Origin: Terasakiella sp. SH-1
GTDB taxonomy: Bacteria; Pseudomonadota; Alphaproteobacteria; Rhodospirillales; Terasakiellaceae
Assembly (NCBI RefSeq): GCF_004564135.1
Contig: NZ_CP038255.1
Location: forward strand, 32,501 to 96,500
Direction of reading: 5' to 3'
Length of the DNA: 64,000 bases
The notes under the pieces were generated by a model. It worked only from the letters and a program-made list of their open reading frames with translations, was not told the origin of the DNA and made no database searches. Below, one piece after another: positions 10,859 to 48,482 of the stretch (positions are counted from its first letter, which is position 1; every line of letters starts with the position of its first letter). The position numbers and the translations under genes are program-made.

Positions 10859-11136
10859 TGCAATGAGTACTATTCTAATTGAAAGGACTGACGTTAACCT
10901 GAAAACGGATAACACCCTAAACTGTAGATTGCAATATGTACATTTCCCTGCTCTTAAAAGGATTCAGCGCTTGCTTGGTCTGTTAAAAAAGTTGGATGCC
11001 GGTTAAAAACTTATGGAACAGGAAGGCAATCAACTGATCCTGCCGTGTCTGATAAACAAGACCACTTAGACAAACTTGCTCGGACTGGACCTGTACGGAA
11101 CAAGTGGAGTGCGTCTCCTGCTGACTACAGGAGAAT

Positions 11137-11785
11137 ATGATGAGTCGCAAACGCACCCCAGAATTTAGAGAAGAAGCCGCCTGTGTTGCTTTAAACAGTA
11201 ACCAATCCCGCAAAGTGGTCGCCGCCGATTTCGGCATTAGTGTCGGCTCTTCGCCGTGAAGTACGAGAACTGCGGGAGGAGAGGGCTCGCGAAGCGGACG
11301 GAACGGCACATTCTAAAAAAGGCGGCTCGTTACTTTGCGAGCCAAAAGCCGTGAAGTTTCAGTTTGTTCACCAGCACCGTGATATCTACAGTATTGCAGG
11401 TCTGTGTCGTGCCATGAATATTTCTCAGAGCGGCTATTTTGCTTGGCGAAAGCATCCTGCCAGTAAACGCTAACGTAAAGGTATGGTTCTGCTTGCCCGC
11501 ATCAAATCCATTCACTACGCTAATTATCAATCCTATGGACGAGGCCGCATGACAGATGAATTGCAGGAAGAAGGAATTTGCGTCGGTGAACACCGCGTTG
11601 CCCGGATCATGAAGCAGAACAATCTGCGGATCGTGCAAAGCCAGAAATTCAAACGCACAACCGATAGCGATCACAAACATAATATCTCGCCTAATCTGTT
11701 GGATGGTAATTTTGCTGCGACAGCACCGGATCAAAAATGGGCGGGAGATATCACCTACCTGTGAACGGGTGAAGGTTGGCTCTAT
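11137..11785 (+). pseudogene. IS3-family transposase remnant (OrfAB)
   Basis: OrfA begins MMSRKRTPEFREEAACVALN. Relative to the copy at 15921, 80 bp are missing after GTGTCGGC, which shifts the frame. OrfB resumes (KFQFVHQHRDIYSIAGLCRA, then DELQEEGICVGEHRVARIMK), with TAA at about 11471 and TGA at about 11761 interrupting it; the latter replaces the usual Trp in ITYLW. Inactive. Confidence 0.8.
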
Positions 11786-15858: not shown

Positions 15859-16608
15859 TGGACCTGTACGGAAAAAGTGGAGTGTGTCTCCTGAGTTAAC
15901 TATGCTGACTACAGGAGAATATGATGAGTTGCAAACGTACCCCAGAATTTAGAGAAGAAGCCGCCCGTGTTGCTTTAAGCAGTAATCAGCCGCGTAAAGT
16001 GGTCGCCGCCGATTTTGGTGTCAGTGTCGGCAGTTTGAACCGTTGGGTTTCCCAATATCGTGAACGAGAAGGTTCATCCCCTAACGATGATGCTCAAAAG
16101 GAGTTAGCCCGTCTTCGCCGTGAAGTACGAGAACTGCGGGAGGAGAGGGCTCGCGAAGCGGACGGAACGGCACATTCTAAAAAAGGCGGCTCGTTACTTT
16201 GCGAGCCAAAAGCCGTGAAGTTCCAGTTTGTCCACCTGCAACGTGAGAACCATAGCATTGCTGGTCTGTGTCGTGCGATGAGCGTTTCTGAGAGTGGCTA
16301 TTTTGCTTGGCGTAATCGTCCTACCAGCAAACGCCAACGAGAAGATATGGTACTGCTGGCCCATATCAAGTCCATCCATTATGCCAATTACCAATCCTAT
16401 GGGCGAGGCCGTATGAAAGATGAATTGCAGGAAGAGGGAATTTGTGTCGGTGAACACCGCGTTGCCCGTATTATGAAGCAAAACAATTTGCGGATCGTGC
16501 GAAGTCAGAAATTCAAACGCACCACTGACAGCGATCACAAACATAATATTTCGCCTAATCTGTTGGATGGTGACTTTGCCGCGACAGCACCGGATCAAAA
16601 ATGGGCGG
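15859..16608 (+). mobile_element. IS3-family element, 3'-truncated
   Basis: It starts with the same end as the element at 11086 (TGGACCTGTACGG) and lacks that copy's 80-bp deletion. It ends abruptly at about 16608 inside OrfB (DQKWAG), where integrase sequence begins. Several hundred bases including the right end are missing. Confidence 0.8.
15921..16608 (+). pseudogene. IS3 transposase OrfA-OrfB, 3'-truncated
   Basis: OrfA has the helix-turn-helix PEFREEAARVALSSNQPRKV and NRWVSQYRERE. A slippery CTAAAAAAGG lies at the OrfA/OrfB junction, as in IS3 programmed -1 frameshifting. OrfB includes the IS3 N-terminal region (GLCRAMSVSESGYFAWRNRP, GRGRMKDELQEEGICVGEHR) and stops before any catalytic residue of the DDE core. 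Confidence 0.8.
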
Positions 16609-17622
16609 GTGTCGGAATTGTACCGTCGATATATGGATGATCCTGCAAGGCAACGGTCTCGCAAAACAGTGATGACTTATGAAAGCGTCTTTAAGGTTCT
16701 CGTCGAGGTGTTGGGCGAAGACAAGGATATTGGTGAGATTAATCGTGATGATTGTCGGTACGTGCTGGATGTGATCCGGTATCTGCCAGCAAATGCGAAA
16801 AAGAAGTTTCCAAAGAAAACGCTGGTGCAAATTTCTGAGATCGCACGGAAGCGGAAGATGTCACCGATGGCACCACTGACCATTAACAAATACATATCGA
16901 AGTTAGCAGCCATGTTGAGTTGGGCTGTAGAAGAAGAATTGCTGGATCATAATCCTGCGAAGAATTTGTCGGTGGCTGATCCAATTCATCAGCAGGGCAA
17001 GCGATTACCATTTTCGGATTGGCAATTGAAGAAGATATTCACTGCATTGGAAGGCAAGTCAGGGGCTGAATATTGGGTGCCTTACATCGGGTTTTACAAT
17101 GGTATGCGGCTAAATGAAATCTGCCAGTTGAATGTTGAAGATGTGCAGCAGCATGACGGTATTTGGTGCTTTGCTATTACTCGTGATCGCACAATTGGTG
17201 TCGATGATAAAATTCTTAAAACGAAAGCATCAGAGCGAACAATTCCAATCCACCCACGGCTTATTGAAATGGGCTTTATGAAATATCTGAAACGATTTGA
17301 GCGAAAACCACGTTCAAAGTTATTTCCTGATATTCCTGCGGGTACCACGGGTTATCGTTCAGATACATTCTCAAAAAACTTCCGTCGCTTCTTACGATCT
17401 ATTGAAGCAGATGCAGACCGGACTTCTTTTCATTCATTTCGCCACAATTTTCGTGATGCACTTCGCGAGGGTAATGTTAGGCATGAAATCGCAATGCTGC
17501 TTGGTGGCTGGTCAGACCGATCAAGATCACAGGCCACACAGATGTTTTATGGGCGAGGGTTTTCAATAGAAACAATTTACGAAGAATTGGCGAAAGTAGT
17601 TTATACAGAACTAGATAACTAA
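16609..17622 (+). pseudogene. Tyrosine integrase, C-terminal part fused to IS3
   Basis: From GTG TCG GAA TTG TAC the sequence matches the second half of the full integrase at 48667. It has the core-binding domain (SELYRRYMDDPARQRSRKTV), the catalytic Arg in YNGMRLNEICQLNVED, the HSFRHNFRDALREG box and a Tyr in MFYGRGFS. The N-terminal 140 or so residues are missing. The protein diverges clearly from the other integrases here, so it is a paralogue and not a recent copy. Confidence 0.85.
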
Positions 17623-17845
17623 TAACTAAGCAACATTTTTTATGAGTTACAAGATGTTGTAATTTCTCCAGTAGTAAGAATTTGGGAAGATTAAGACTTC
17701 TTGCGTTCAATCAAGGTCATTATTCAATCTGAGTCTCTAATTATTGTTAATATTTTCAATTATGCAATTAAAGGAGGTTGGCTCATTGCTATGCAATAAA
17801 TCTTATGGCAGCATGGCGGCGAACAATGATATTAGGAGAAGTAAT

Positions 17846-18025
17846 ATGCCCCTTGATCAAAGCACAAATAAACAATCCGCTCGTGTATGGTCTGAACGTT
17901 TAAACGACTGGATCGAAATTTCCAATATTCAGGCTAAAGAAGCAGTCGATGAATTACTGTTAACTGGTGTTGGCACTCGGATGCTCGTTCCAGATTGGGA
18001 TACTCCTAATACAGTAAAAGACTAA
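17846..18025 (+). CDS. Small peptide, 59 aa, putative radical-SAM substrate
   Basis: ATG 17846 follows AGGAGA by 6 nt. The peptide starts MPLDQSTNKQSARVWSERLN, has DWIEISNIQAKEAVDELLL in the middle and ends TGVGTRMLVPDWDTPNTVKD. It has no Cys, signal peptide or membrane segment. The radical SAM gene begins 45 nt later and a kinase-like gene follows, a layout like precursor peptide plus modifying enzymes. A second ribosome site (AAAGGAGG at 17771-17778), with an in-frame TTG about 8 nt later, could give a longer form of about 79 aa. Function is inferred from position only. Confidence 0.6.
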   Translation: MPLDQSTNKQSARVWSERLNDWIEISNIQAKEAVDELLLTGVGTRMLVPDWDTPNTVKD

Positions 18026-18070
18026 AGTTAACAGGTGAACTCGTACCTCTCGCTATTAACTGGGTGTGAA

Positions 18071-19006
18071 ATGAATATAAAAAGCTTAAACTTCTTGCCT
18101 GATAATGGGCCTCGTCAAGTATATTTCACCCCCAGTTATTACTGTAACAGCGATTGCATTATGTGTGGTGTAGCTAAATGGAAGAGAGAGCAAAAACAAG
18201 GGTTCCCTATTGAAAAAGCAAAATTACTAATTGATAACATGAAGCTTTGCGAAGAGGATGCTGTAGAACTTTCTGGTGGAGAACCTACTGTTTACAAAGG
18301 CTTCAAGGAACTGGTTGAATATATAAAGCACAATTATGGATCACGTGTTGTTGTGCTCTCACATGGCAGAAGTTTAAAAAATAAGAAATTCGTTGAAAGC
18401 ATTGCAAATTGTGGGATTGACCGTTTTGTTATTCCATTATTTAGTCATTTAAGCGATGTACATGATCAAATCACACAAGTTAAGGGAAGTTTTGAAGAAA
18501 CGGTTTCGGGTTTTCGTGCGTTAGAAGAATTTAATATACCTTTTTCTCTAAAATTCATCACGATGAAACCTAATTTCCAACATGCGTTAAAAACTTACGA
18601 GTTTAAAAACCAAAACTTTCCAAATGCTCGATTTATCATTTCTGGGTATCAGTTAATGGGAGAAGCCATCACCAATGATAATGAAGTTTCAATTATGCAT
18701 TCTCAGGCTGGCCCAGAGATTGAGAAAGTTTTGGAACAAGCTGAAAATAATGGAGAAGTCGTACCTGTTTTCATGTTCCCTATGTGCCACATTGACCCTT
18801 CTTTTTGGAAATTTTATGGAGTTGGTGTCTGGCATGAGGAGGTTGTTGCTCCAGATGCGGAAAATATCAATCTAAGTAGTGAACTGAATTATGAAGAGAA
18901 ACACCCTAAATGCACAGATTGTTTAGTGAGCCAGAAGTGTGTATGGGCATGGAAAAAATACACTCAGCGTTTTGGTAGCAATGAATTGAAACCGTATGCG
19001 AGTTGA
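18071..19006 (+). CDS. Radical SAM protein with C-terminal Cys cluster
   Basis: A 311-aa enzyme. SYYCNSDCIMCGVAKWKREQ gives the CxxxCxxC iron-sulfur motif at about residues 25-32. ELSGGEPTVYKGF is the GGEP SAM-binding motif. The C-terminal cysteines FPMCHIDPSFW and KCTDCLVSQKCVWAWKKY resemble a SPASM or twitch auxiliary-cluster region, typical of peptide- and protein-modifying radical SAM enzymes. ATG 18071 is chosen; a GTG at 18035 would add 12 residues. The gene is AT-rich compared with the flanks and overlaps the next gene by 11 bp. Confidence 0.85.
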   Translation: MNIKSLNFLPDNGPRQVYFTPSYYCNSDCIMCGVAKWKREQKQGFPIEKAKLLIDNMKLCEEDAVELSGGEPTVYKGFKELVEYIKHNYGSRVVVLSHGRSLKNKKFVESIANCGIDRFVIPLFSHLSDVHDQITQVKGSFEETVSGFRALEEFNIPFSLKFITMKPNFQHALKTYEFKNQNFPNARFIISGYQLMGEAITNDNEVSIMHSQAGPEIEKVLEQAENNGEVVPVFMFPMCHIDPSFWKFYGVGVWHEEVVAPDAENINLSSELNYEEKHPKCTDCLVSQKCVWAWKKYTQRFGSNELKPYAS

Positions 19007-19679
19007 TCCAAAAGTTAGTAGGAAGCAAAAAATTGAATATGTAATTTCCGTTATTATTATGGAAATTCGAAGACACACAGAAACCTCGGTAATGCCTAAG
19101 ATTATTTCAACAAGAGGAAGAGGGGTGGTTCATTTATACCCTTTTGATCTTGTAGCCAAAATAAGCTTTCTTGATGAGTTTTGTGACTTAGGGGCCATAT
19201 ATAACGAAAATGCGATTTTCAACAAATTATATAAAACAGTCTCTTCCTTCCCTCAGCTTAAACCTATTCAAATAGACGAATGTCTAGTAACGTTTTCAAA
19301 ATTTATACATGGTCGAACAGCTACAGAAGATGATCATTACATTATTTCAGCATCCTTAAAATGCATGCACAGATCATTAAATGAAATAAAATTTGAAAAA
19401 CTCAATTATTTCTATTTTGAGGTTGAGCAACTCATACAGTTGATCAAACAATTTCACCCAGAAAAATTACCGTCTCTTCGTGAGCAGTTGAAACAATTAT
19501 GTGAACGCATAATTTGTGAAACAGAAAGACACATTATTTGCCATGGAGACACCAATTTAGGGAATCTCCTAATTTCAAAGAATAAAGGCAATTGGATTGA
19601 TTTTGAATGTGTGTGTAAAGCTCCTATCGAATGGGACCTCTGTATTCTAATCATCCACGGCCTTCCGGTATTGGTTTGA
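18996..19679 (+). CDS. APH-like phosphotransferase, 3'-truncated
   Basis: HIICHGDTNLGNLLISKNKG is the catalytic HGDxxxxN loop of the aminoglycoside phosphotransferase/choline kinase fold, and NWIDFECVCKAP supplies the metal-binding DFE. The N-lobe (VAKISFLDEFCDLGAIYNEN, with Lys and Glu) is short but recognisable. After EWDLCILII the frame runs into unrelated DNA at about 19655, so the last helices of the C-lobe are lost. The start overlaps the radical SAM gene, so the two are translationally coupled. A peptide or small-molecule kinase is plausible; no resistance role is implied. Confidence 0.75.
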   Translation: MRVDPKVSRKQKIEYVISVIIMEIRRHTETSVMPKIISTRGRGVVHLYPFDLVAKISFLDEFCDLGAIYNENAIFNKLYKTVSSFPQLKPIQIDECLVTFSKFIHGRTATEDDHYIISASLKCMHRSLNEIKFEKLNYFYFEVEQLIQLIKQFHPEKLPSLREQLKQLCERIICETERHIICHGDTNLGNLLISKNKGNWIDFECVCKAPIEWDLCILIIHGLPVLV

Positions 19680-21394
19680 GACCAGAAGGTTACATCATTC
19701 ATTTTTACAATGATGAACAGGATCAAAATCCTGCCAGCTACATGGCCGGAGATCATGATCGTTTGGTATTGCAAGGTACTATTCGGAGCAATATGCAGGA
19801 TTATTTCTTGCCCATATCCGTGAATGAGTTGGTGGAGAATTTCCTGATTAATGACCGTCTTGTATTAGACGACGAAGATCAGGAAATACCACGATGGGCA
19901 GAACGCCTGTTTGATAAGGTCGTTAGTAGCCCACAAGACGTGCGTGACCATTTGGGGGAATATGCTTTATTTGCGGCTCGTTCTCAGACCAGTTGTATCT
20001 TTGGCGGAGAAGGTGCAGGCAAAACGACTTCGATAATGAAGGCCATTCCCCAATTTGACGAACCTCACGAGGGGCACATTATCATCGCATGCCAAAGCTA
20101 CGATCAAGCTGAACAGAAGTGTCGTGAGTATAATGAACTGAACGACGGCGATGATTATCAAGGCATTTTTCTGCTTTCCTTGAGCCAGTATATCACAGAC
20201 GGATGTCAGGTTTTGGATATTAAGAAGCCAACTTCCGCCATTATTGCCGAAGCCGGTTTTAGCAATATGCTGGACTACATCTACTGCCAAGGCGGTGCAT
20301 TGGTTGATTACCTTGAGGATCGTAAGAAGGAATTGTGGGACTCTTTACGTATCGACGAAACCAGAAAGAAGCGACCTGTCTGGTTCACCGTACATAGTGT
20401 TGTTCAGAGATGGCACCTTCACGGTGGTACACGCCTGTGGCTACATCATGAATTTGCAAATGAATATGCCAAGGGAAAGAAAGATCGGGATACGGCCCGT
20501 TTATATAATGCCATGGCGGCACAATGGGTCATCCATGATGAAGTCCGTATGTCTGATCTTATGGTTCAGTATCCGGCACCGGAAGTGGATCGTGTCCGTG
20601 AACTTGGTGATGATTACCTAAAAATGAGGAATAGAGAACGACTTGCTCTTTGCCGTCAATTCGGTTTCAAAGACGAAGAATTTGATGATGTAAGGAAGGT
20701 TGCCGAATATCAGTTTACTGACGATGACATCATCACCATTGAACCTGATTGTGAAACCATCGGTGTCAAAACAGCAATCTCGCCATATGAAACGGTTAAG
20801 GGCAATACACATTACGCAAAGCTCAAGAATTGGTGGAATGAGAACCCGGCTCGCATCACGTTTCTAACGACAGAGCATCGTATTGCGAATGCCATGGACC
20901 ATATGGATAACGGACCCGTCGTGTTTAATTTTGATCGACCTGAATTGTTCGGTGAAGAAGAAACCACTGTTAATCTCATTCTTGATAAAAACGCCCGGAA
21001 AGCTGATGTGAAGAAGCTAGTGAAGGAAATTCAACAGCAGCACCCGAATGGGTTAGTCATCTCAAATATGACAAATGGTTTGGCGAGCACACACGATAAA
21101 GCGAAAGGCTCAAATAATTTCAATCAGGGCAATGTTGATTGTGTCACATCCGTTTTTACCATGCTGGCTCCACAGCAGTATGAACAGTTACTGGTCGAGA
21201 ATGCACTATTTGGAACCGAGAACATGGTTCAACTTTTCTACTTGGATCAGTTCAATCAGTCGTGTGGTCGCACACTTGGGTACCGCTATAAATCGAATAT
21301 CAAAACTCAAGCTGTCATGTCCAAGCGTTTGTGGAAGGAAATAGCACTCGAAATTTACGCGAACAGTCGCTACCGGGTGCGATTATCTCCATAA
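19631..21394 (+). pseudogene. Plasmid/phage-type replication helicase, 5'-truncated
   Basis: From about 19670 (RPEGYIIHFYNDEQDQNP) the frame encodes a P-loop protein: SCIFGGEGAGKTTSIMKAIP is Walker A at about residue 130. HGGTRLWLHHEFANEYAKGK and WVIHDEVRMSDLMV lie in the middle, and a C-terminal RecA-like half includes NGLVISNMTNGLAST and QFNQSCGRTLGYRYKS. It resembles the helicase half of plasmid or phage primase-helicases. The start codon at 19631 lies in kinase-derived DNA, so the native N-terminus is missing. Confidence 0.65.
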
Positions 21395-21456
21395 CGATTG
21401 CATCTTCAAAAATATATTATATTATAGTATAGTAATTTTTAGCACAGAAGGTTTTG

Positions 21457-21813
21457 ATGCGGGTCTTTACATCACGGCAGTTCGATAAATGGTGCAAGCA
21501 AACCGATATCACTGATGCAAAGCTGGTTAAAGCTGCTTTAGAGGTCAATGAAGGACAATATGAGGCAAGTTTGGGCGGTATGGTCTTCAAGAAGCGGATC
21601 GCTGCTGTCGGTCAGGGTAAAAGCGGCTCGTACAGAACCATTATCGCATTGAAGATTGATGATAAGGCTTTCTTTATCCACGGCTTCAAGAAGAACCAAA
21701 AGGCAAATATTTCGAGTGGTGAAAAGCAAGACCTGAAAGCTGCCGCCAAGGTCATCATGCAATTGGATGAAAGCGGTTTGAAAGTGTTTCGGGAATTGGA
21801 GGTTATACAATGA
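21457..21813 (+). CDS. Type II toxin, RelE/HigB-like
   Basis: A 118-aa protein starting MRVFTSRQFDKWCKQTDITD. GQYEASLGGMVFKKRIA, GKSGSYRTIIALKIDDKAFF and IHGFKKNQKANIS match the RelE-like family of small basic mRNA interferases. ATG 21457 follows AGAAGG by 5 nt. It overlaps the next gene by 4 bp, giving the toxin-first order typical of HigBA/NadS-type pairs. An AT-rich palindromic stretch (TATATTATATTATAGTATAG) at about 21412-21432 could hold the promoter and operator. Confidence 0.85.
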   Translation: MRVFTSRQFDKWCKQTDITDAKLVKAALEVNEGQYEASLGGMVFKKRIAAVGQGKSGSYRTIIALKIDDKAFFIHGFKKNQKANISSGEKQDLKAAAKVIMQLDESGLKVFRELEVIQ

Positions 21814-22124
21814 GTGTTTATAAATCTGATCTATCAAAATCATTGCACGGCATGATGTCTGATCTTCATGCTGCCGGTGCCATTCCAAAAACAACCATGC
21901 GGGAGTTTGATGAACGCTGCTTGCACCAAGCTGACTTTGATCGAAAAAAAATCAAGGAACTGCGAGAACGTGAGCATATCAGCCAAGCTGTACTGGCAAA
22001 ACTCATCGGTGTTTCTACGAAAACAGTTGTAAAGTGGGAGGCCAAAGACGGCACCCCGCCCAAGGGGGCTGCCGCCCGTCTACTTGATCTGATTGACCGT
22101 AAAGGGTTGGAAGTTCTGGCCTAA
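21810..22124 (+). CDS. Antitoxin with HTH, HigA/NadS-like
   Basis: A 104-aa protein. KIKELREREHISQAVLAKLI followed by GVSTKTVVKWEAKDGTPPKG is a Cro/C1-type helix-turn-helix in the C-terminal two thirds. The N-terminal part (KSLHGMMSDLHAAGAIPKTT) probably contacts the toxin. The ATG overlaps the toxin stop (ATGA), so the pair is coupled. It should neutralise the toxin and repress the operon. Confidence 0.87.
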   Translation: MSVYKSDLSKSLHGMMSDLHAAGAIPKTTMREFDERCLHQADFDRKKIKELREREHISQAVLAKLIGVSTKTVVKWEAKDGTPPKGAAARLLDLIDRKGLEVLA

Positions 22125-22300: not shown

Positions 22301-23402
22301 AGCACCACAGTATGACCACGACGGTCTAAAAACGTTAATCAAAACGATCGTTGAAGAGGTTTTAGAACGTCATGCACCCAAGAAGGCATCCATTACGCTG
22401 GACGACCTCTACCATCGTTATATGGATGATCCGGCACGACAGCGATCACGCAAAACGGTTATGACATACCAATCTGTTTATAACGTGCTGATGGATATAT
22501 TCGGTAAAGATCGATTGATTGAGGAGATTAAACGGGATGATTGTCGCCAATTCATGGATGTTGTGCGTCACCTCCCTGCGAATGCTAAGAAAAGGTTTCC
22601 ACGGAAATCATTGTTGGAAATATCTACGTTGGCACGGGAACGTGGAATAAAACCGATGGCTCCGCTGACCATCAACAAATACGTAAACAAATTGTCGGCG
22701 ATGTTAAATTGGGCGGTCGAAGAAGAATTGTTGGACCATAACCCTGCAAAGAATTTATCCGTCGCCGATCCCGTGCATGCTCAGGATAAACGATTGCCGT
22801 TCTCGGACCATCAATTACAGAAGATATTTTCGGCATTATCCGATAAATCAGGTGCTGAATATTGGGTGCCGCATATCGGTCTATATAACGGTCTTCGGCT
22901 CAATGAAATCTGCCAACTGAATGTCGAAGATGTAATCGTTCGAGATGAGGTCTGGTGCTTCAACATCACCCGTGAATCGGACCGTGGAATTGACGATAAA
23001 GTTCTCAAAACGAAATCATCGGAACGTGTGGTTCCCATTCATCCGCAATTATTGGAACTCGGCTTCATGCGGTATCTGAAACAGTTTCAACGTAAGCCAA
23101 GAGGGAAATTATTTCCTGACATTCGTGCTGGTACCACGGGCTACCGATCTGACCAATTCTCAAAGTGGTTCAGTAGGTTCCTCAAATCCATTGATGCCGA
23201 TTCTGACCGTACGTCGTACCATAGTTTCCGACATAACTTCCGTGATGCATTGCGTGAAGCGGATGTTCGTCATGAAATTGCTATGTTGCTTGGGGGGTGG
23301 GCAGATGGTTCACGGGGAAAGTCGGCCCAGTTATATTACGGCAGAGGCTATTCATTGGACATCATTCTAAAGGAATTAACATTTATAAAGTTTTCCCTAT
23401 AG
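22301..23402 (+). pseudogene. Tyrosine integrase, N-terminally truncated
   Basis: The integrase frame is readable from about 22301 (APQYDHDGLKTLIKTIVEEV); the first ATG is at 22422. It has the core-binding domain and a complete catalytic domain: NGLRLNEICQLNVED, HSFRHNFRDALREADVRHEI and LYYGRGYS with the Tyr nucleophile. About 110 N-terminal residues, including the arm-binding part, are missing. Positions 22387-22573 match 27222-27408 in inverted orientation with a single difference. Confidence 0.85.
22387..22573 (+). repeat. 187-bp inverted repeat, copy 1 (integrase core)
   Basis: Identical to the reverse complement of 27222-27408 except for one base (CTC versus CTG in the Asp-Leu-Tyr codons). 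Sequence to the left of it is diverged integrase, so identity is confined to this patch. With its partner it brackets the second radical SAM and phosphoesterase genes. Confidence 0.9.
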
Positions 23403-23523
23403 AGAATAAGCTATCAAAAATAACAATTTTAAATTGCCAATAGAATCAAACTTACATAATCTATTCTATAATAGAAACTGAGAAGCAAATAAACTATAAG
23501 CTGTATATGGAGAGAGAGCGAGA

Positions 23524-24918
23524 ATGGATTTAAGACACTCTTATAAAGATGAAAATATATTACCTGATCGCAAATTAGATGTGCTTTTTATCGCAGCACC
23601 ATCTTTCTATAGAGACGCATCAATCCAGCACTACATCAAAGAAAAAGAAAGCAATATAACATCCAGAAGCGGTGCTTTATTAATGGGAGATCAAGACCAT
23701 GAACCAAGTCATGGTATTTTTTGTTTGAAATCTAGTTGCGATCAGGCAGGTCTATCAACTTTCGCAATAGATATGAATTTGTTATACTTCTTGAAAACGA
23801 TAAACGAAGATTTTTCGCCGAATCAATTTCTAGAAAATTGCATAAAAGCAGGTCAGCCCGATTTTATCGCTTTAACTTCGATGCGGTCAAATTATCAAGA
23901 GGCAGTCAAAATATTCTCGCTTATTAAGGAGTTGAATCACGAAATTCCAGTCATATTTGGAGGAAGTGCAGCAGTTGATACCACGCTTCCTTTTTCGGAA
24001 AAGTTTGATTACATCATTCGCGATCAGCTACATATGACTGTTGTAGCTAAAATATTTTCCATCGTTAACTCGTCTAATGGAAAGAATAATATTCTGAGTG
24101 AGTTAACCAAGGACACATTTCCAACGTATATAAATATACCTAAAGAAATAGATTTAATCCCAAGATTATTTCAAGCTACAGGGTGTCCTACTGGTTGTGA
24201 CTTTTGTTTTCCTGCGGCATCCAAAAATTTCAAGGTATTTATGCATAAAAATGAGACTATAGAAACTAACATAAACAAATTGCATAAAGAATATGACTTT
24301 AGCTATTTTCTAATTGGTGATTTAACTTATTTTATAAATTCAAAGCCTTCAAAATTATTAAATGAATATATTGCAGCGAATAACTTCAAGCCTTGGTGGT
24401 GTCAAACACAAGCAAAGATGTTGAATGAAACTTCGATAAAGAGGTTGAAATCGGCAAATTGTCGTCAAATAGCTTTTGCTGTGGAGGATTTGGAAACATC
24501 AAATTCCTCTATCCGTTTAAAAAATAAAAGCTTTCGAGAAACAGAGAGAATACTTACAGATTTGAGAAGTGCTCAAATTGATAGCCAAATGTATTGGATA
24601 TTTGGTTTACCTGACGACACTCATGCGTCTTGTATGAAAAAAATTGAAGATATTTCATACTTTGTATCAAGTGGCTTGGTCAGTTCGATGCATCTTTCAT
24701 ATCTGATGCCATATCCCGGAACGAGCTATGGTGACCAACCAGAACAATATGGCATCAGAATGATTAATACTCTTGATCACCATTTTGCAGGTGTCAAAAC
24801 TGATTTCTATGATGTTCTTCCAATCTATGAAACAAAACACTTAAAGTGCCATGAAATTTTCCACTATTTCAACGAGGCTAGGCGTATTTGCTCAAGAAAA
24901 TTGAGTGAACCTGCTTGA
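23524..24918 (+). CDS. B12-binding-type radical SAM protein
   Basis: A 464-aa protein. Residues 1-190 resemble a cobalamin-binding-like Rossmann domain (LDVLFIAAPSFYRDAS, DFIALTSMRSNYQEAVKIFS, HEIPVIFGGSAAV), although the DxHxxG cobalamin signature is not evident. The radical SAM core starts at ATGCPTGCDFCFPAASKNFK with CxxxCxxC. FLIGDLTYFINSKP, AFAVEDLETSNSSIRLKNKS and LMPYPGTSYGD match the core of methylthiotransferase and B12-radical-SAM enzymes. GGAGAGAGAGCGAGA precedes the ATG. Low GC and isolation between integrase pieces suggest transfer. The substrate is unknown. Confidence 0.82.
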   Translation: MDLRHSYKDENILPDRKLDVLFIAAPSFYRDASIQHYIKEKESNITSRSGALLMGDQDHEPSHGIFCLKSSCDQAGLSTFAIDMNLLYFLKTINEDFSPNQFLENCIKAGQPDFIALTSMRSNYQEAVKIFSLIKELNHEIPVIFGGSAAVDTTLPFSEKFDYIIRDQLHMTVVAKIFSIVNSSNGKNNILSELTKDTFPTYINIPKEIDLIPRLFQATGCPTGCDFCFPAASKNFKVFMHKNETIETNINKLHKEYDFSYFLIGDLTYFINSKPSKLLNEYIAANNFKPWWCQTQAKMLNETSIKRLKSANCRQIAFAVEDLETSNSSIRLKNKSFRETERILTDLRSAQIDSQMYWIFGLPDDTHASCMKKIEDISYFVSSGLVSSMHLSYLMPYPGTSYGDQPEQYGIRMINTLDHHFAGVKTDFYDVLPIYETKHLKCHEIFHYFNEARRICSRKLSEPA

Positions 24919-25179
24919 TTTTTAAAAATACCCAGTGACGATTAATGCAGGTAAGGCACTCGCTTTTAATTATGGAAAAAACATGCTAATACAATCTAAG
25001 AGATGTTGAGGAGTGTCAGTTCGATAAGCTGCCGATTTTCAATTGGTTTTATTTTTTGAAGAACTATCGATTGTCAATAATAGCGAGTGGCAAATGCCGC
25101 CCCTCCAATATTGGCTATAGTAATTTCTGATTCCTTAGTACAATGGATTCAGTGTGTGGGAGGCATTGAGAGAGGCTAT

Positions 25180-27243
25180 ATGGAACTATCTTTTTTGCAC
25201 GTCTCAGACGTTCATTTTGGTGTCACTGACAACGACGGTGAACACGAGAGAATCACAAAGGCCATTGTTACCGCAGTAAAAAACAATTCACTTTCTTATG
25301 ACTACATATTGTTCACAGGTGACCTTGCACAAAAAGCGACTGCTACAGAATTCCAACAAGGACTTCACTGGCTAGAACAATTATCGGAATTTGCGAAAAA
25401 GGGTATAGTTCTGTGTCCGGGACATCATGACACCAATCGGACAAAAGTAGATTCAAAATGTTTACGATTGGCATACGGACAAGCTGAAAATTTCAATTTA
25501 AGTAAAAATACGATTGAGAACAGCCATGCTCATATGGAAGATTTCTTAAACTGGTGTAAAGATACTCACGATGAAAGAAGTTTCTTCCTAAACACATGGA
25601 ATGATAACCCATTCATTGATCACGTAACCCATAGCACTGAATGTGGAACTGTACATTTCATTTGCTTAAATTCAGCAGTGTTATCCTGTGATAATGAGGA
25701 TCATCAGAAATTATGCGTTGATATTAAAAGTTTAAATGAAGCATTAAATAAAACGAATACTAAAGAAGAACTTGTGGTTGTCTTAAGCCACCATCCGTCT
25801 GATTGGTTAGTGGAATGGAACAAAACGAAATTTAACACTTTGCTGGGGCAAGAAACAGGCCCACATATTTTTTGTCATGGCCATGTCCATGAAATTGATG
25901 TGATTTCATCTTCGAATTCGCAAGGGCAATCACTGTTTGTCTCAGGAGCAGGTGCTGCTTATCAAGGAAGTAAGTGGCCTCAGTTTTTCACGCATTTAAA
26001 GGTCGATTTTACAGCAAACCAAACTCATCCCACAGTTTTTAAATATTCGACAGAAAGTGGTCAATGGTTAAAGAACGATGAGAAATCTCGACCTGTAATG
26101 GTTCAGTTGCCAAAGATTAAGGCAACAAAACAAGAGGATGTTGATGGCATCAATGTCACAGAAGCGAACTATTCCCTTTTAATTAATCAACTTATCGAAT
26201 TATACCCTAATGATTTGAAAGATTTTTTTTACAAAACAAGTAACAAGAGGCGTTTACCGTTTTACTTATCTGAATTTAAACCGTCTTTTCCATTTAATGT
26301 AGATCATCAGCAAAAGTGTTCTTCGCCTGATAGAGGAGAGACATCCTTAGCAGAACAGAGGAGGCAAGAAGCTCTAGCAAAGAAACGGGTGTTTTATCCG
26401 GGAAATATCTTTCGATTAGTAAGTATTAACAATGAAAAAACCATCATAGCACCGTCAAGATACGATCACATCCTTGATGATTGTGATTATTTACGAGAGA
26501 ATATTTTTAAGGGATGGGGTGTTTGTAAAGATGAGACTGCTCAGAAATCTTTTTTAAAAAATGCACCTATAATTCAAGAGTGGTTAGAAAAAATTAAAAA
26601 CATAAAGAAAGGTGATTTTTCAATTTATGAAGCCGGAATCGCCTTCACAATCCCAATCATAAGTCACGAAAACACAGGTAAACTTAAGCTTTTACGGGCA
26701 AAAAGTTCTGATGCCAAATCCGCAGGAGCTAAGAAATTCCACTGTTGTCCAGCAGGAATGCTGGAATTCAGTTCAATGGATCATTTTAAAGAAATTAACT
26801 TTAATAATTTTAAACAATATATCTTAAAAGAAGTTTTGGAAGAAACTCAAGGTCACAACGAACTAGAAAAGGAGACACGCTCACTTTTGGCTTTAAAAAG
26901 GCGAATCGATCAGATCGTATATAATAATAGTGAGCAAATTAACCCGGTTGAAATAATTGAAAAAGTTGTAGACCTTAAACAGTTGGACGAGGTCTACTTC
27001 ATCGTTGATGCGTTTCGTCTAAGACCTGAATTTATTATACCAATAGACCTTATGGGGGGATTCGACGTTAATACTAATTGGGAATATCAAGAGCTTGAGG
27101 CAAACCCAGTGATAATTAATAGTGAAAATGATTTAGATATTTTGGCCAACGAATTTAACTTTTGGGCAGAACCCGGCATAGCTGCCGCTTATTTAAGTTT
27201 AGCGGAAAGACTTAAGCCGGAAGGTGACGCACAACATCCATGA
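25180..27243 (+). CDS. Calcineurin-like phosphoesterase with C-terminal Nudix-like region
   Basis: About 687 aa. The N-terminal 290 residues are a metallophosphoesterase: SFLHVSDVHFGV (DxH), FTGDLAQ (GDxx), LCPGHHDTNR (GNHD variant with His for Asn), VLSHHPSDW and CHGHVHEID. The C-terminal part has HCCPAGMLEFSSMDHF and YILKEVLEETQGHNELEKE, a degenerate Nudix box. ATG 25180 follows GAGAGAGG by 5 nt. The last codons (after LKP) are read from inverted integrase DNA, so the native end is lost or altered. Such a fusion suggests action on a nucleotide or nucleotide-derived signal; this is inference. Confidence 0.7.
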   Translation: MELSFLHVSDVHFGVTDNDGEHERITKAIVTAVKNNSLSYDYILFTGDLAQKATATEFQQGLHWLEQLSEFAKKGIVLCPGHHDTNRTKVDSKCLRLAYGQAENFNLSKNTIENSHAHMEDFLNWCKDTHDERSFFLNTWNDNPFIDHVTHSTECGTVHFICLNSAVLSCDNEDHQKLCVDIKSLNEALNKTNTKEELVVVLSHHPSDWLVEWNKTKFNTLLGQETGPHIFCHGHVHEIDVISSSNSQGQSLFVSGAGAAYQGSKWPQFFTHLKVDFTANQTHPTVFKYSTESGQWLKNDEKSRPVMVQLPKIKATKQEDVDGINVTEANYSLLINQLIELYPNDLKDFFYKTSNKRRLPFYLSEFKPSFPFNVDHQQKCSSPDRGETSLAEQRRQEALAKKRVFYPGNIFRLVSINNEKTIIAPSRYDHILDDCDYLRENIFKGWGVCKDETAQKSFLKNAPIIQEWLEKIKNIKKGDFSIYEAGIAFTIPIISHENTGKLKLLRAKSSDAKSAGAKKFHCCPAGMLEFSSMDHFKEINFNNFKQYILKEVLEETQGHNELEKETRSLLALKRRIDQIVYNNSEQINPVEIIEKVVDLKQLDEVYFIVDAFRLRPEFIIPIDLMGGFDVNTNWEYQELEANPVIINSENDLDILANEFNFWAEPGIAAAYLSLAERLKPEGDAQHP

Positions 27244-27751
27244 ATTGGCGACAATCATCCCGTTTAATCTCCTCAATCAATCGATCTTTACCGAATATAT
27301 CCATCAGCACGTTATAAACAGATTGGTATGTCATAACCGTTTTGCGTGATCGCTGTCGTGCCGGATCATCCATATAACGATGGTACAGGTCGTCCAGCGT
27401 AATGGATGGTTTCTTCGGTGAATGCTTTTCCAGAACCTCTTCTACGACCGTTTTGATTAGCGTTCTGAGACCGTCTTGGTCGGATGTTGGTGGAGCTTTG
27501 ACTGTAGCAAATTCCTGTAGCAAACCGGAGCAGTCGTAATCGTCGTTCAGACGTTGTTCTGATGCTTGTTGAAGTAACTGGTCAACATGGTCAATGACGG
27601 TTCGATAACGTTGTTTGGCGGTGCTGTAATCGGCAGTGTGTAAGGACTTGGTGATTTCGGTACGACCGACACGTTCACGCAGATGCAGCGGCACCCAACG
27701 ACGATAATGCCAGATGTCACCACGACGATGTAGACCAGAGAACCTACGCAT
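27212..27751 (-). pseudogene. Tyrosine integrase, N-terminal third only
   Basis: ATG 27751 with GGAGG 5 nt upstream starts MRRFSGLHRRGDIWHYRRWV, an arm/SAM-like N-terminal domain like that of the full gene at 48667. The core-binding region follows, up to MDVVRHLPA, where the frame enters the phosphoesterase DNA and stops. The catalytic domain is absent. An attachment-core-like site lies about 180 bp upstream, in the same arrangement as the intact integrase. Confidence 0.85.
27222..27408 (-). repeat. 187-bp inverted repeat, copy 2 (integrase core)
   Basis: Inverted partner of 22387-22573. Identity ends at 27222, the junction with the phosphoesterase gene. The 4.65 kb between the copies could be inverted by homologous recombination. 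Confidence 0.9.
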
Positions 27752-27889
27752 GGCGACCTCCACTGTAGCAGTCGCCTGTAGCAAATTCACGATTCTGACC
27801 TGAATTTGTCGTCAAATTACGCTGTGAAATACCGTCACAACCACCGTCGCCGACCGTCATATTCAGCAGCATTCTGCGGGTGATAACAA

Positions 27890-27922
27890 AAAACCACGCT
27901 GCGTCACCGCATGCGTGGTTTT
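27890..27922 (-). terminator. Hairpin terminator next to attachment core 1
   Basis: AAAACCACGC and GCGTGGTTTT form a 10-bp stem. Read on the minus strand it follows the GCTCCACCA-like core at 27929-27950 by a few bases, as a terminator follows a tRNA gene. Its sequence differs from the hairpins after the other cores. Confidence 0.75.
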
Positions 27923-27928
27923 GTATAT

Positions 27929-27950
27929 TGGTGGAGCTATGCGGGAACAT
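27929..27950 (-). other. Attachment-core-like site 1 (tRNA/tmRNA 3' end)
   Basis: On the minus strand it reads ATGTTCCCGCATAGCTCCACCA, which looks like the T-arm and acceptor end of a tRNA or tmRNA with CCA. A terminator follows, then the N-terminal integrase fragment. The matching site at 48456-48477 has the same core but a different terminator after it, so the two DNA contexts switch exactly here. Confidence 0.65.
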
Positions 27951-28071
27951 GAATGCAAGGCGTACAGTGGCTTTGCGAACTTCCGACGCAATCACACCAC
28001 AGACGTTTTCAGCACCGTTCACACGCCATTTCTGACGATCTGACGGATATGTCATCGGGGTAAAAACAAAA

Positions 28072-28106
28072 CAGCCACAGCACGTCACCGTGTCTATGGC
28101 TGATTG
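28072..28106 (-). terminator. Hairpin terminator next to attachment core 2
   Basis: CAGCCA...TGGCTG encloses a second stem CACG/CGTG, with a T-rich tail on the minus strand. It lies directly after core 2 in that orientation. Confidence 0.6.
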
Positions 28107-28111
28107 TATAA

Positions 28112-28133
28112 TGGTGGAGCCTAGCGGGAACAT
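28112..28133 (-). other. Attachment-core-like site 2
   Basis: The minus strand reads ATGTTCCCGCTAGGCTCCACCA, a variant of the core at 27929-27950. It is followed by its own terminator. The two cores are about 180 bp apart with no clear gene between them. Confidence 0.6.
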
Positions 28134-28200
28134 TTCTGGATTGGGCCGGATTAATTCAACGGGGCCAAGAAAAACCAGAAGGCTTTGTTTTGAACGCCTT

Positions 28201-28428
28201 TCAATCTAACGGAATGAGTTCTGAACCAAATTCGTCCATAAAGAATTCACTACAGTTTTTATGGGAGACAAACACATTGCGGGTACATCCAATTGCCCAA
28301 TCATCATCCACTGACAAAATGACATACTCATCGTCGCCAAAATCAACGTAGTAGTCACCAAACCCATTCTGCTTGGTCTTCATTAATTCCATCGAGATTG
28401 GTGGTTCCAAATCGTAGTAAGTAGACAT
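28201..28428 (-). CDS. Hypothetical acidic protein, 75 aa (left copy)
   Basis: Identical to the product of 47978-48205. It starts MSTYYDLEPPISMELMKTKQ and is very acidic (DFGDDEYVILSVDDDW), with one Cys in the middle and one near the end. GGACAG lies upstream of the ATG. It is small, soluble and follows the 170-aa gene by 49 nt. I recognise no family. DNA-mimic or regulatory roles are possible for such acidic element-borne proteins but nothing shows this directly. Confidence 0.6.
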   Translation of the reverse strand: MSTYYDLEPPISMELMKTKQNGFGDYYVDFGDDEYVILSVDDDWAIGCTRNVFVSHKNCSEFFMDEFGSELIPLD

Positions 28429-28477
28429 TTTACTGTCCTTTCATTTTTTTTTGGGGGGGAACGAAGCCCTATCAGTT

Positions 28478-28990
28478 TTAATGTCCATCGACATACAGAT
28501 CGAGAAGACGGTTTTGGTCATCCAGATAACGGACTGCCACACCAAGATCGCCGTATTCTTCTACGATCTCTTCGGCAACCATTTTAAGGTCAGCTTCTTC
28601 ATCACTGAACGGACGTAAGAAGATACGTCCCGTGAGATAGGCGATGTCGTCATCACCTTCCTGAACACGGTAATTGGCCTGAATATCGAACTGACTATAA
28701 CTCTTGCGGATTTGATATGACAGATCACTGAACGTGCGTTCTGTCGGCACAAAAGTAATGCGACGATCTGCACCATTCACATGTAAGTGTGGTGTTGCCG
28801 CCAATCGCACAGCATCACCATCAGATTGAACTGCGATCCGACCATATTCTTCTTCGATGCAAAATGGTCCTTTACAGATTTCTTGAAGCGCATCATGCCA
28901 ATTGCCCAAGTTTTCTGGATCATCTGCAACAAAGAACTGATGCCAGCGATTGGTCGCGAGGGCATGGTTAAAAGGGTAATCTTGTCCCAT
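28478..28990 (-). CDS. Hypothetical protein, 170 aa (left copy)
   Basis: Identical to the product of 47417-47929. From MGQDYPFNHALATNRWHQFF it has VADDPENLGNWHDALQEICK and an acidic second half (RPFSDEEADLKMVAEEIVEE). ATG 28990 is chosen because AGAAGG lies 9 nt upstream; longer frames start at 29053. No signal peptide or membrane segment. It sits between the resolvase and the 75-aa gene in both copies, suggesting a conserved element module. The family is unknown to me. Confidence 0.65.
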   Translation of the reverse strand: MGQDYPFNHALATNRWHQFFVADDPENLGNWHDALQEICKGPFCIEEEYGRIAVQSDGDAVRLAATPHLHVNGADRRITFVPTERTFSDLSYQIRKSYSQFDIQANYRVQEGDDDIAYLTGRIFLRPFSDEEADLKMVAEEIVEEYGDLGVAVRYLDDQNRLLDLYVDGH

Positions 28991-29095
28991 GTGTTTCATC
29001 CTTCTTATTGGGAGGTTTATAACTGAGACAATGGTACGGCCGTGTTTAATCAAAAGTCATAAAAAATCGACCAAGTAAAAAAACATACCCCGGGA

Positions 29096-29317
29096 TTAGA
29101 CTGCTGCCTTGAGAGCGTTGTAATAAGTTGATTTACTGATGTTCAGATGACGGCATGTATCCATCATTGTTGTTGAGGGATCATCATGAGCGATCTGAAT
29201 CTGACGAGCCAACGCGGTCGTTAGTTTCTTTGGGCGACCGAAGGTTTTACCATTCTCACGGGCGACTGCCTGTCCGGCTTTGGTGCGCTCAATTAAGAGG
29301 TTCTTTTCGAACTCTGC
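29096..29317 (-). pseudogene. Resolvase C-terminal fragment (repeat copy)
   Basis: Identical to the last 74 codons of the resolvase at 46745-47311 (LAEFEKNLLIERTKAGQAVA onward, with the helix-turn-helix TCRHLNISKSTYYNALKAAV). It begins exactly at the repeat boundary, so the catalytic domain was never part of this copy. Confidence 0.9.
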
Positions 29318-32130: not shown

Positions 32131-33075
32131 TTGCGAACTGGAGAAGTTGTCCAGTTTGGAGATTTAGAAGTAGTGTCTATCGACGATTTAAGTTCGGTTC
32201 AGTTTTCAGGTCATGAAACCTTTCCGTTGCGACACGGTTGGCTGACTAAAGCCACGACAGAGATTTATAAGAAAGAAACCGACAATCGCGGCATTTTTGC
32301 GGATGCCGACGCAATCGTGAGATTTGGCGTTGGTAAGAATATGGTGAGTTCAATTCGCCATTGGGCTACCGCTACTCAAATCATTGAAACACAGAATAAT
32401 ACTTGGAAAGTAACAGAGTTAGGTGATTTCCTGTTCGGTGAAGATGGTGTCGATGTTTACGCTGAAACCCACTCTACTCTTTGGTTGTTGCATTGGAAGC
32501 TTTGTTCCACACCAAATAAAAGCACAACGTGGTATTGGGTTTTTAATTTACTTTTAGATGATAAATTTGAAAAACATGATCTAATTTCTTCATTGCTGAC
32601 ATTTTGTTCTGATAAGAATATTTCCCGGACTTCTGAATCCACAATCAAGAATGATGTTGATTGCTTTATTGGTTGTTATGCCAAAAAGCGTGGGAAAACG
32701 GCAGGGGATGATCTCGAATCAGCACTCGGGGATTTGAATATTATTCAGCCTATTAAGCATGGGACGCGATACGTCCTACAAAAAGGTGATAAACCGACAC
32801 TCCACTCTGCAATATTTAACTTCTGTTTGTTCGAGTATATGAAGTCAGCAGGTACATCGAATACAATTTCGGTTGATAAAATTGTTTATGGAGAAGGTTC
32901 TCCCGGTCGTGTCTTTAAGCTTGATGAACAATCAACAGTAAGACGTTTAGTAGATATTGCGGATAGTTCAAACGGTGTCTTCGAATGGTCTGAAACCGCC
33001 GGGTTAAGGCAAGTTGCTTTGGTGAATGAACCTTCCTCTCCAATCGAATTATTACGCCCTGCGTTTGAGATTTAA
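32131..33075 (+). CDS. sspB: SspB-like DUF4007 protein (DNA nickase of the Ssp system)
   Basis: A 314-aa protein. VQFSGHETFPLRHGWLTKAT (about residue 22) and DADAIVRFGVGKNMVSSIRH are the DUF4007 signature. In the SspABCD system this protein is reported as the nickase needed for single-stranded DNA phosphorothioate modification. SspC and SspD genes follow at once, which supports the call. The first possible start is TTG 32131 with AGAGA about 6 nt upstream; a GTG at 32173 is the alternative, and neither is strong. Confidence 0.85.
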   Translation: MRTGEVVQFGDLEVVSIDDLSSVQFSGHETFPLRHGWLTKATTEIYKKETDNRGIFADADAIVRFGVGKNMVSSIRHWATATQIIETQNNTWKVTELGDFLFGEDGVDVYAETHSTLWLLHWKLCSTPNKSTTWYWVFNLLLDDKFEKHDLISSLLTFCSDKNISRTSESTIKNDVDCFIGCYAKKRGKTAGDDLESALGDLNIIQPIKHGTRYVLQKGDKPTLHSAIFNFCLFEYMKSAGTSNTISVDKIVYGEGSPGRVFKLDEQSTVRRLVDIADSSNGVFEWSETAGLRQVALVNEPSSPIELLRPAFEI

Positions 33076-33076
33076 A

Positions 33077-36000: not shown

Positions 36001-36409
36001 CCTCAAGAGCTTCGCCTCTCGTCTGTCTAATTTCTCAGGTGACAATAATCAGGTTGAAAGCATTGCAGGTCTGGTTGGTGAAGCGATCCCTAAGAAGTGG
36101 CGTGATGGCGATTTAAAGAAAGCGAAGATGGAACTGACTGCCATTGCAACCCAGTTCCGCCGTGAAGAAGCTTTAGCCCATGTCAAAACAGACATGTCAG
36201 AAGGTCATCAGGCAATCGCTGTAGTGGTTGGAACGGGTAAAGAAGCAGAAACCCATATGGAGTCAGCAAACCTTACTAAGCAGCAAGCCAAAGACGTTCA
36301 AATGTATGCTGAACAGTTGAATGATTTGCTTGGTAAACTATCTGATAACAGAACCATCCAGATTGCCACGTTGGCCGAGGCTGGATTAAAGATTATTTCG
36401 AGTAAGTAA
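33077..36409 (+). CDS. sspC: SspC-like large ATPase of the phosphorothioate system
   Basis: A 1110-aa protein. AFTLTGPFGGGKSSLAVVLG at about residue 63 is Walker A and GVILLIDEMGKFLEYA is Walker B. A long helical C-terminal region follows with no other enzyme motif that I can read. The size, the P-loop and the position between the DUF4007 and PAPS-reductase-like genes fit SspC. The start is ATG 33077, one nucleotide after the sspB stop; longer frames reach back into sspB. Confidence 0.85.
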   Translation: MPKDQLSHSVKVVSRFQRSIRVDTDMYDTEALEGYVCPPSASNALISISKQVASGPQRAFTLTGPFGGGKSSLAVVLGSLLGKRQENHDKACSVLGEQTTTPLLNNLPRGEDGWIVLPIVGSQQTPDEAIVNALIKSELISEKDRKKGALTLLEEIANKTSDQNGVILLIDEMGKFLEYAATNSGDLFFFQELAERSARHEKKIVTVGFLHQAFDQYASKLSQTARDEWAKIQGRFIDIPFIQTHDETVDLISRAIEADEVPTKFQNVTDDVANEIIKRRPGTTADLSNRLCGAWPLHPVVTALLGPISRRRFGQNQRSTFGFLTSGEPGAFQEFLSKFSLEDNQSFNPARLWDYLQLNLEPLIISSPDGHRWATASDAISRVNSLGSDLHISLAKSIGLIEVFRGQTGLVASSEILSACHPNVSIKEVEQALEDLRKWSAAVYRKHLGAFALFEGSDFDIEAAIEEEILSGLSIEFDDLEARANLRPAVAKKHYINTGSLRWFRVELCEFYELKKRVSEFKPSAGEMGLFLLALTTDDIEQEKVFAEITKLTKTRANSSISIAGLPNADQIRSLSREKNALESILENHPALHGDSIARNEVDTRIGQTEQALAEALNNSILQADWYWRGKSQGIKRLDTLSQFASEIAESYYSQTPIISSELLNRGKPSSSAASARRSLMEVMLEREHEENLGYEGFPADAGLYYTVLKATGLHSQTSDKQWEFTEKKCSDKNLQKLFKKTDELLDDGQLTDLTELYNLWSLPPFGLANGVLPVLALTYMLSRRSELAIHLHGKFRPRWETIIVHDMLADPKLLTVRKTKLSGFREKVLINLHETMERLLNKKIKREAFDVAKAMVTFFMRLPEWVHATNDLSEDAKTIRAILKLASDPNKLLFEDLASAFENVAADNEDMGAQLIAQKVGEALSEMSQAYPTMIQGLKQHLLIEVGAEGDGLTNLADLQNRAKGVEEETGDFRLKSFASRLSNFSGDNNQVESIAGLVGEAIPKKWRDGDLKKAKMELTAIATQFRREEALAHVKTDMSEGHQAIAVVVGTGKEAETHMESANLTKQQAKDVQMYAEQLNDLLGKLSDNRTIQIATLAEAGLKIISSK

Positions 36410-36412
36410 GTT

Positions 36413-37273: not shown

Positions 37274-37278
37274 TTTTT

Positions 37279-39606: not shown

Positions 39607-39706
39607 ATTCAACACCTTTGTTTAATTTGACCAAAGAGAATTATCATACCCGCAAGAGTAAGGCCAGATAATACACGCTGTGATAGGTGTAAAAGATATT
39701 ATGTGA

Positions 39707-47311: not shown

Positions 47312-47416
47312 TCCCGGGGTATGTTTTTTTACTTGGTCGATTTTTTATGACTTTTGATTAAACACGGCCGTACCATTGTCTCAGTTATAAACCTCCCAAT
47401 AAGAAGGATGAAACAC

Positions 47417-47929: not shown

Positions 47930-47977
47930 AACTGATAGGGCTTCGTTCCCCCCAAAAAAAAATGAAAGGACAGTAAA

Positions 47978-48205: not shown

Positions 48206-48272
48206 AAGGCGTTCAAAACAAAGCCTTCTGGTTTTTCTTGGCCCCGTTGAATTAATCCGGCCCAATCCAGAA

Positions 48273-48294
48273 ATGTTCCCGCTAGGCTCCACCA
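48273..48294 (+). other. Attachment-core-like site 3
   Basis: ATGTTCCCGCTAGGCTCCACCA, a tRNA/tmRNA-3'-end-like core, is the counterpart of site 2 in the other repeat copy. It is followed by a terminator. Confidence 0.6.
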
Positions 48295-48300
48295 TTATAC

Positions 48301-48477: not shown

Positions 48478-48482
48478 AAATT

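Follow-up and report, generated by a model that had tools for sequence, protein, structure and literature searches.

A short HxsC-like radical SAM enzyme beside a truncated kinase gene in Terasakiella sp. SH-1: possible remnant of a peptide modification cassette

Three adjoining genes of the alphaproteobacterium Terasakiella sp. SH-1 are the subject of this analysis. They encode a 59-aa peptide, a radical S-adenosylmethionine (SAM) enzyme and an APH-like kinase and lie in a window of 64,000 nt (NZ_CP038255.1, positions 32,501 to 96,500; all coordinates below are those of the window), i.e., the whole stretch of DNA that was analysed, inside one 3.83-Mb contig of the genome (G000). With a probability of roughly 0.5, the locus represents what remains of a cassette for a ribosomally synthesized and post-translationally modified peptide (RiPP) that was gained by horizontal transfer and lies in a mosaic island of defence genes and mobile elements. 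The radical SAM enzyme is very likely a maturase of the HxsC superfamily, judging from family scores, conserved Cys residues and trees. The three open reading frames (ORFs) were found where a preliminary description had placed them, on the same strand, with 45 nt between the stop of the peptide gene and the ATG of the radical SAM gene and with an 11-nt overlap between the latter and the kinase ORF:

17846..18025, + strand: 59-aa peptide ORF, candidate substrate (ORF scan; other possible starts in the same frame: TTG at 17744 and ATG at 17762)
18071..19006, + strand: short HxsC-superfamily radical SAM enzyme, 311 aa (Pfam, NCBIfam, alignments, trees and AlphaFold2/PDB matches)
18996..19649, + strand: APH-like kinase, 3'-truncated, 218 genuine codons (Pfam APH, 33 bits; junction at 19650)

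The radical SAM enzyme and its relatives

The enzyme (323 aa if an alternative GTG start at 18035 is used) carries CNSDCIMC, GGEP and, close to the C-terminus, CxxCx5C, that is, all the motifs of the preliminary description including its C-terminal Cys cluster. It matched Radical_SAM of Pfam with 58 bits. The top NCBIfam match was HxsC (TIGR03977; 129.4 bits, below the curated cut-off of 267.9), followed by HxsC4 (NF038332; 76.6 bits, below the curated cut-off of 500), and haem and other radical SAM families scored at most 63 bits. Every Cys that is invariant in an HxsC alignment of eight sequences is retained, i.e., C25, C29 and C32 of the SAM cluster as well as C239, C281, C284 and C290, the C-terminal Cys residues of the putative auxiliary-cluster region being conserved; GGEP is likewise common to HxsC and the window enzyme. 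A difference lies at the N-terminus, where only 24 residues precede C25, whereas 18 of 22 compared HxsC proteins (370 to 411 aa) bear an extension. Since the other four are 296 to 333 aa long, with start codons as chosen for the comparison, this extension does not define the HxsC family.

The window enzyme further differs from HxsC in its score below the cut-off, its position in the tree and its missing partner. A 59-row tree excluded it both from the canonical HxsC clade (100/98) and from the HxsB-adjacent archaeal group (99/93) and set it on a long branch, in no well-supported small group, with archaeal short forms nearest by path; in an earlier 38-row tree it stood closer to HxsC (grouped with HxsC and two archaeal forms at 97/83). 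A search of the genome for HxsB was negative, its best match reaching 33.5 bits where the cut-off is 370; 12 of 14 control genomes likewise gave matches, none of them above that cut-off. Neither an HxsA-type peptide nor an HxsD-like gene was present beside the radical SAM gene, the search for HxsA being confined to this neighbourhood. Taken together, these features make the protein a short form that branches deep within the HxsC superfamily. A paper that cites Haft and Basu names HxsB and HxsC only as putative His-Xaa-Ser peptide maturases (PMC9062424).

The fold predicted by AlphaFold2, with a predicted local distance difference test (pLDDT) score below 50 for residues 255-274, matched SuiB and anSME in the PDB up to residue 307-308, tied with viperin rows. 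For the peptide- or protein-acting enzymes SuiB, anSME and ChlB, the match of the predicted structure spans the C-terminal Cys region, and for SkfB it extends to residue 277; with an identity of only 11-21% to these four enzymes, the product chemistry cannot be read from them. To our knowledge, HxsC has not been characterized in vitro.

Some antibiotic clusters hold radical SAM and kinase genes, and APH folds act mostly on small molecules. The locus could accordingly be a fragment of a small-molecule pathway, with a sugar or nucleoside as the substrate of the radical SAM enzyme and with an APH-like kinase that modifies the resulting product by phosphorylation or once provided self-resistance. 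The cytosylglucuronate decarboxylase BlsE indeed ranked among the top matches in the PDB (E 1.4e-10; E 9e-10 by profile), and the short archaeal relatives L148-L150 adjoin genes that look glycosyltransferase-like by eye. This explanation is nevertheless improbable, given that the family scores place the enzyme with HxsC (129 bits versus 36 for BlsE) and that the enzyme and HxsC have the same auxiliary Cys residues (C239 and those of CxxCx5C).

By E-value, the best relatives of the enzyme came from Woesearchaeota (the phylum of genome G749), which we take to belong to the DPANN group; 12 of 147 genomes matched at E 1e-15, the best match being a protein of about 300 aa with 30% identity over residues 21-309. 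With an HxsC of G752 the identity was higher, at 32%, but confined to residues 23-250; in the phylum of G752, Bacteroidota, 3 of 198 genomes matched in frames of 306, 336 and 383 aa. Within the class, 2 of 385 genomes had a match, the one besides Terasakiella sp. SH-1 being a 396-aa frame beside HxsB, and in the phylum it was 7 of 398, the other six in open frames of 374-433 aa. A class search with profile A3 gave matches in 9 of 385 genomes, all except the own one in open frames of at least 376 aa, and HxsB stood beside four of the nine non-own places (HxsB and HxsD references). The own genome was the only one of six in the same family with a match, and single-protein searches confirmed no close relative in genome contigs (0 of 35 pattern matches) or in viral contigs (0 of 4). 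Matches on plasmids comprised 445 records, 330 of them from Klebsiella, and 43 of 60 rows spread over the ranking of these 445 were named HxsC (21-27% identity).

The archaeal short HxsC-like enzymes, which stand near HxsC4 (NF038332), resemble the window enzyme in their length of about 300 aa, in a full-length identity of up to 30% and in the C-terminal pattern CxxCx5C..WKxYxxxFGxxELKP; in the alignment, the window enzyme has a C-terminal stretch in common with L138_6186 and L139_2063 that is absent from HxsC. Unlike the window enzyme, they often occur in multi-copy arrays and often together with HxsB or HxsD, and neither the window peptide nor the kinase was found in their loci. Alignment scans yielded 47, 44 and 19 viral loci and 23 genome loci, with neighbours read for a part of them, and the context of short relatives was counted in 16 loci; L084 (cut) and L201, two other candidates for short forms, are not among these. 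An HxsB-like or SPASM-like radical SAM gene was present in 9 of these 16 loci, adjoining the short form in G749, G909, G1054:C33, G978, G990, G1033, G1090 and the viral contig L154 and lying within the same 16 kb in G1087; such a gene was absent from the other seven, i.e., G982:C11 and G982:C19 (both short contigs), G1054:C37, G1069, G1072, G995 and G1005. These neighbours, together with the His-Xaa-Ser repeat proteins encoded in G749 and G1087 and the repeat protein of L154, link the short HxsC-like group to peptide modification in many of the loci but not in all. Modification of a peptide by the window enzyme is therefore likely as well, considering its placement in the HxsC superfamily, its conserved C-terminal Cys residues and the many relatives beside HxsB-like genes.

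Several of these loci are of interest in their own right. In the archaeal loci L138, L116/L117 and L143, short HxsC-like radical SAM genes form arrays of several copies, some as paired fusions, and two of these loci have His-Xaa-Ser repeat proteins nearby. On a 179-kb viral contig (L154, 3971-6886), a short HxsC-like enzyme is encoded with an HxsB-related radical SAM protein and a repeat protein rich in Cys, Asn and Tyr, possibly a phage-borne RiPP-like set. MT837156.1 (L004), deposited as 'Bacteriophage sp.', may be bacterial DNA, since the proteins of its Hxs set are about 99% identical to those encoded on a contig of Faecalibacterium prausnitzii (L075).

The 59-aa ORF as candidate substrate

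The strong ribosome site claimed for the peptide gene was corroborated in part. A properly spaced Shine-Dalgarno sequence, AGGAG, lies at 17834-17838, with the ATG 7 nt further on, but a stronger AAAGGAGG is located at 17770-17777, about 70 nt upstream of this ATG and at a spacing unfit for it. Because of this second site and of a frame that is open from 17744 or 17762, the start of the ORF is uncertain. In dinucleotide shuffles of the 448-nt gap 17623-18070, an ATG-initiated ORF as long as the observed one (in-frame length of 87 codons) arose in 34 of 5000 cases, an equally long ORF with any of the three starts in 39 of 5000 and a Shine-Dalgarno sequence followed by an ORF of 59 codons or more in 33 of 5000. 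The codon score of the peptide was +3.2, compared with a mean of 0.2 (standard deviation 4.6) for in-frame pieces of two nearby genes and of -6.5 (standard deviation 5.4) for out-of-frame pieces. The length of the ORF is hence beyond chance, and its codon score fits in-frame and not out-of-frame pieces. A scan of 17500-19800 detected three promoter-like sites, compared with 7.2 in shuffles, and no terminator.

Searches for relatives of the peptide were negative in plasmids (noise at E 1-5 only), in viral contigs, in four family libraries and in 200 non-own loci, including those fetched as relatives of the radical SAM enzyme (best E 0.67), the last search being one of loci and not of whole genomes. 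The 59-aa peptide contains no HxS repeats. A likeness to HxsA leaders that had been noted by eye was rejected by a profile test, in which the peptide scored -1.7, a value reached by 242 of 2000 shuffles, while held-out leaders scored 33-69; the profile was built from 8 of 25 leaders picked by eye as alike, and 1047 of 2001 sequences received a score at all.

These results bear on the RiPP layout proposed in the preliminary description, of which one half holds, namely a radical SAM enzyme from a superfamily of putative peptide maturases with conserved C-terminal Cys residues, and the other does not, as conservation of the peptide is unsupported. The expectation that the peptide would be conserved beside homologous radical SAM genes was not borne out, and this counts against the remnant of a RiPP-type cassette. 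The comparison is a weak one, because the closest relatives of the enzyme are only about 30% identical and offer no close locus to compare. A role of the 59-aa peptide as the substrate of the enzyme is plausible and unproven, and we hold it only tentatively.

It is conceivable, if rather unlikely, that the enzyme acts alone, as a maturase or otherwise, on a substrate encoded elsewhere; the 59-aa ORF would then be a fragment or an unrelated small gene, such as a regulator of a mobile element, and the kinase a dead neighbour. The lack of peptide relatives in plasmids, viral contigs and the 200 loci, the missing HxsA leader signature and the ambiguous start would all agree with this, as would the existence of short relatives without a nearby HxsB, e.g., G1054:C37 amid what look by eye like housekeeping genes. 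It is less easily reconciled with the arrangement of the three genes, which are co-directional and separated by a 45-nt gap and an 11-nt overlap, and with their common AT-richness (GC of 0.39 for the peptide, 0.37 for the radical SAM and 0.34 for the kinase gene, versus 0.44-0.45 in surrounding ORFs).

The kinase gene and the surrounding island

The kinase ORF extends from 18996 to 19679 (227 aa), retains the catalytic motifs HGDTNLGN and DFE, and matched APH (PF01636) with 33.4 bits, above the gathering threshold of 23.2. This upholds the claim of an APH-fold kinase gene that overlaps the radical SAM gene, yet the gene is not whole, its kinase sequence stopping at 19649. The match ends at position 210 of 239 of the APH profile and at 187 of 256 of an NCBIfam thiamine kinase model, and in BLASTP residues 44-216 align with 37-216 of a 283-aa APH protein before the alignment stops. 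The last nine codons are out-of-frame foreign DNA, beginning at 19650. Two further features mark the edges of the fragment in which the cassette lies:

16619..17622, + strand: int1, C-terminal part of a tyrosine recombinase (Pfam Phage_integrase; 71% identity to int2)
19650..21394, + strand: 3' part of a P-loop gene of the 933-aa type, 5' part lost (right-edge marker outside the cassette; same-genus ORFs)

The 587-aa ORF of the window that contains the P-loop part matches the central and terminal parts of a 933-aa ORF (G001) and of a 936-aa ORF (G003) from its residues 7 and 8, respectively, in a search in which 3 of 21 genomes matched, the own one included. DNA homology to the same-genus genome G001 starts at 19650, and the sequence of G003 is too divergent to align there at the DNA level. 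Because the DNA from 19650 corresponds to the interior of a 933-aa gene, of which a same-genus genome has a complete copy, the kinase gene is 3'-truncated: 218 kinase codons are joined to the inside of the P-loop gene, both genes being truncated, and the kinase lacks about 67 C-terminal residues of the APH fold. A working kinase partner in this strain is thus very unlikely, and the trio does not make up a novel system in intact form.

Relatives of the kinase were scarce. One plasmid record was found (Nonomuraea, 24%) and none in viral contigs, and no PDB entry matched below E 0.02. Within the class, 2 of 385 genomes matched, the non-own one over 42 residues and with no radical SAM ORF in its 1.8-kb locus. 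A tblastn search of the 200 non-own loci returned only two loci that kinase searches had already brought in. A motif scan for APH gave no match in 116 loci (a set without L138-L150), with a pattern that demands the Asp of the HGD type and misses the HGE type.

At the left edge, int1 lacks its N-terminal part and is joined to a transposase fragment, of IS3 type by eye, in a single ORF (16567-17622). The homology between the left flank and a second transposase copy (11086-11745, also IS3-type by eye) stops at 16609, and the DNA homology of int1 starts at 16621 versus int2, at 16619 versus int3 and at 16729 versus a 477-aa integrase (48622-50055). Since transposase homology ends and integrase homology begins within these few nucleotides (16609 and 16619-16621), the left edge is a junction. 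The 477-aa protein, a full-length integrase copy related to int1, is the only one of the three scanned with Pfam (int1, int2 and 48622-50055) that has an N-terminal DUF6538 in addition to the catalytic domain. Given the junction at the left edge and the missing N-terminal part of int1, the 3.0-kb stretch from 16619 to 19649 is a mosaic fragment.

The window holds further mosaic and defence-related elements. At 22422-27243, the integrase fragment int2 is followed by an AT-rich gene pair, the same layout as that of int1 and the cassette; the first gene encodes a B12-binding radical SAM protein (PADLOC candidate PDC-M51A, 33 bits; ApyD-like, 45 bits) and the second a metallophosphatase whose N-terminus is related to the anti-phage protein DS8. 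A defence system of the phosphorothioation type is encoded at 32131-39615 (SspB, SspC and SspD on the + strand, SspE on the - strand), with very strong PADLOC scores for all four, and its region is flanked by inverted copies (27216-29317 and 47090-49214) with 88% identity across 2.1 kb. Downstream of the P-loop gene lies a gene pair that looks like a toxin-antitoxin module by eye (21454-22124), in the same order as in two same-genus genomes. Beyond the window, a reversed integrase copy (L021, G000:C1:100610-101581), whose score against int2 equals that of the copy at 48622, adjoins what was read by eye as a tRNA-Ala gene, a possible attachment site.

The Ssp system in the same window would suit an antiviral module in a defence island, composed of a viperin-like nucleotide enzyme and a kinase. 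PADLOC pVip, a model described as 'Viperins associated with kinases', matched with 36.7 bits, and the fold predicted for the radical SAM enzyme is close to viperin, prokaryotic viperins sharing the radical SAM core fold. Such a module is nonetheless very improbable, as the last three C-terminal Cys residues of the enzyme, an additional Cys cluster, lie beyond the viperin alignments and the kinase gene is truncated. The assignment of the enzyme to the viperins themselves was rejected, its score being far below the viperin cut-off (NF038283, 26 bits versus 180, while HxsC gave 129).

Comparison with known systems and implications

APH-fold kinases are already described for RiPP pathways and are not new here. 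CaoK of cacaoidin phosphorylates Ser/Thr of the precursor peptide CaoA (PMC9486802), and for the thioamitide protein TsaC phosphorylation of Thr8 of the peptide was proposed (PMC8153245). As in the window, the kinases CaoK/LanK of class V lanthipeptides and TsaC occur beside a putative precursor peptide; in contrast to the window, where the kinase is truncated and accompanied by a radical SAM protein, their partner is a HopA1-type lyase. The view that a kinase is unusual in such a set is weakened by these examples, although the available passages do not pair it with a radical SAM enzyme. Open-licence PubMed Central (PMC) text, a weak source with partial coverage, yielded no paper that brings together a radical SAM enzyme, an APH kinase and a precursor peptide; a search of the same text for radical SAM, Woesearchaeota and RiPP found none either.

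If the locus is the remnant of a RiPP-type cassette, electrons from a reductase would enable the cluster of the radical SAM enzyme to cleave SAM, and the resulting 5'-deoxyadenosyl radical would abstract a hydrogen from a peptide side chain, the simplest candidate for this peptide being the 59-aa product. The auxiliary cluster might accept the leftover electron or hold the peptide, leading to a cross-link or a similar change. In the intact ancestor, the kinase may have phosphorylated Ser or Thr of the same peptide, or else a small molecule, a step that is most likely lost in this strain. It would be a long shot, and is distinctly doubtful, that intact relatives outside the current sampling represent a new type of RiPP, in which a short HxsC-like maturase without HxsB modifies a non-repetitive peptide of about 59 aa that an APH-fold kinase phosphorylates as well, with an enzyme type that was passed among archaea, phages and the island of an alphaproteobacterium, the latter harbouring a damaged copy.

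The truncation calls for caution, given that the kinase, the striking part of the trio, is a broken gene. With respect to the family, the enzyme of Terasakiella sp. SH-1 is an outlier from bacteria in a group related to HxsC, the nearest members being archaeal in the present data, together with one viral contig, which suggests that short HxsC-like maturases exist outside the His-Xaa-Ser system.
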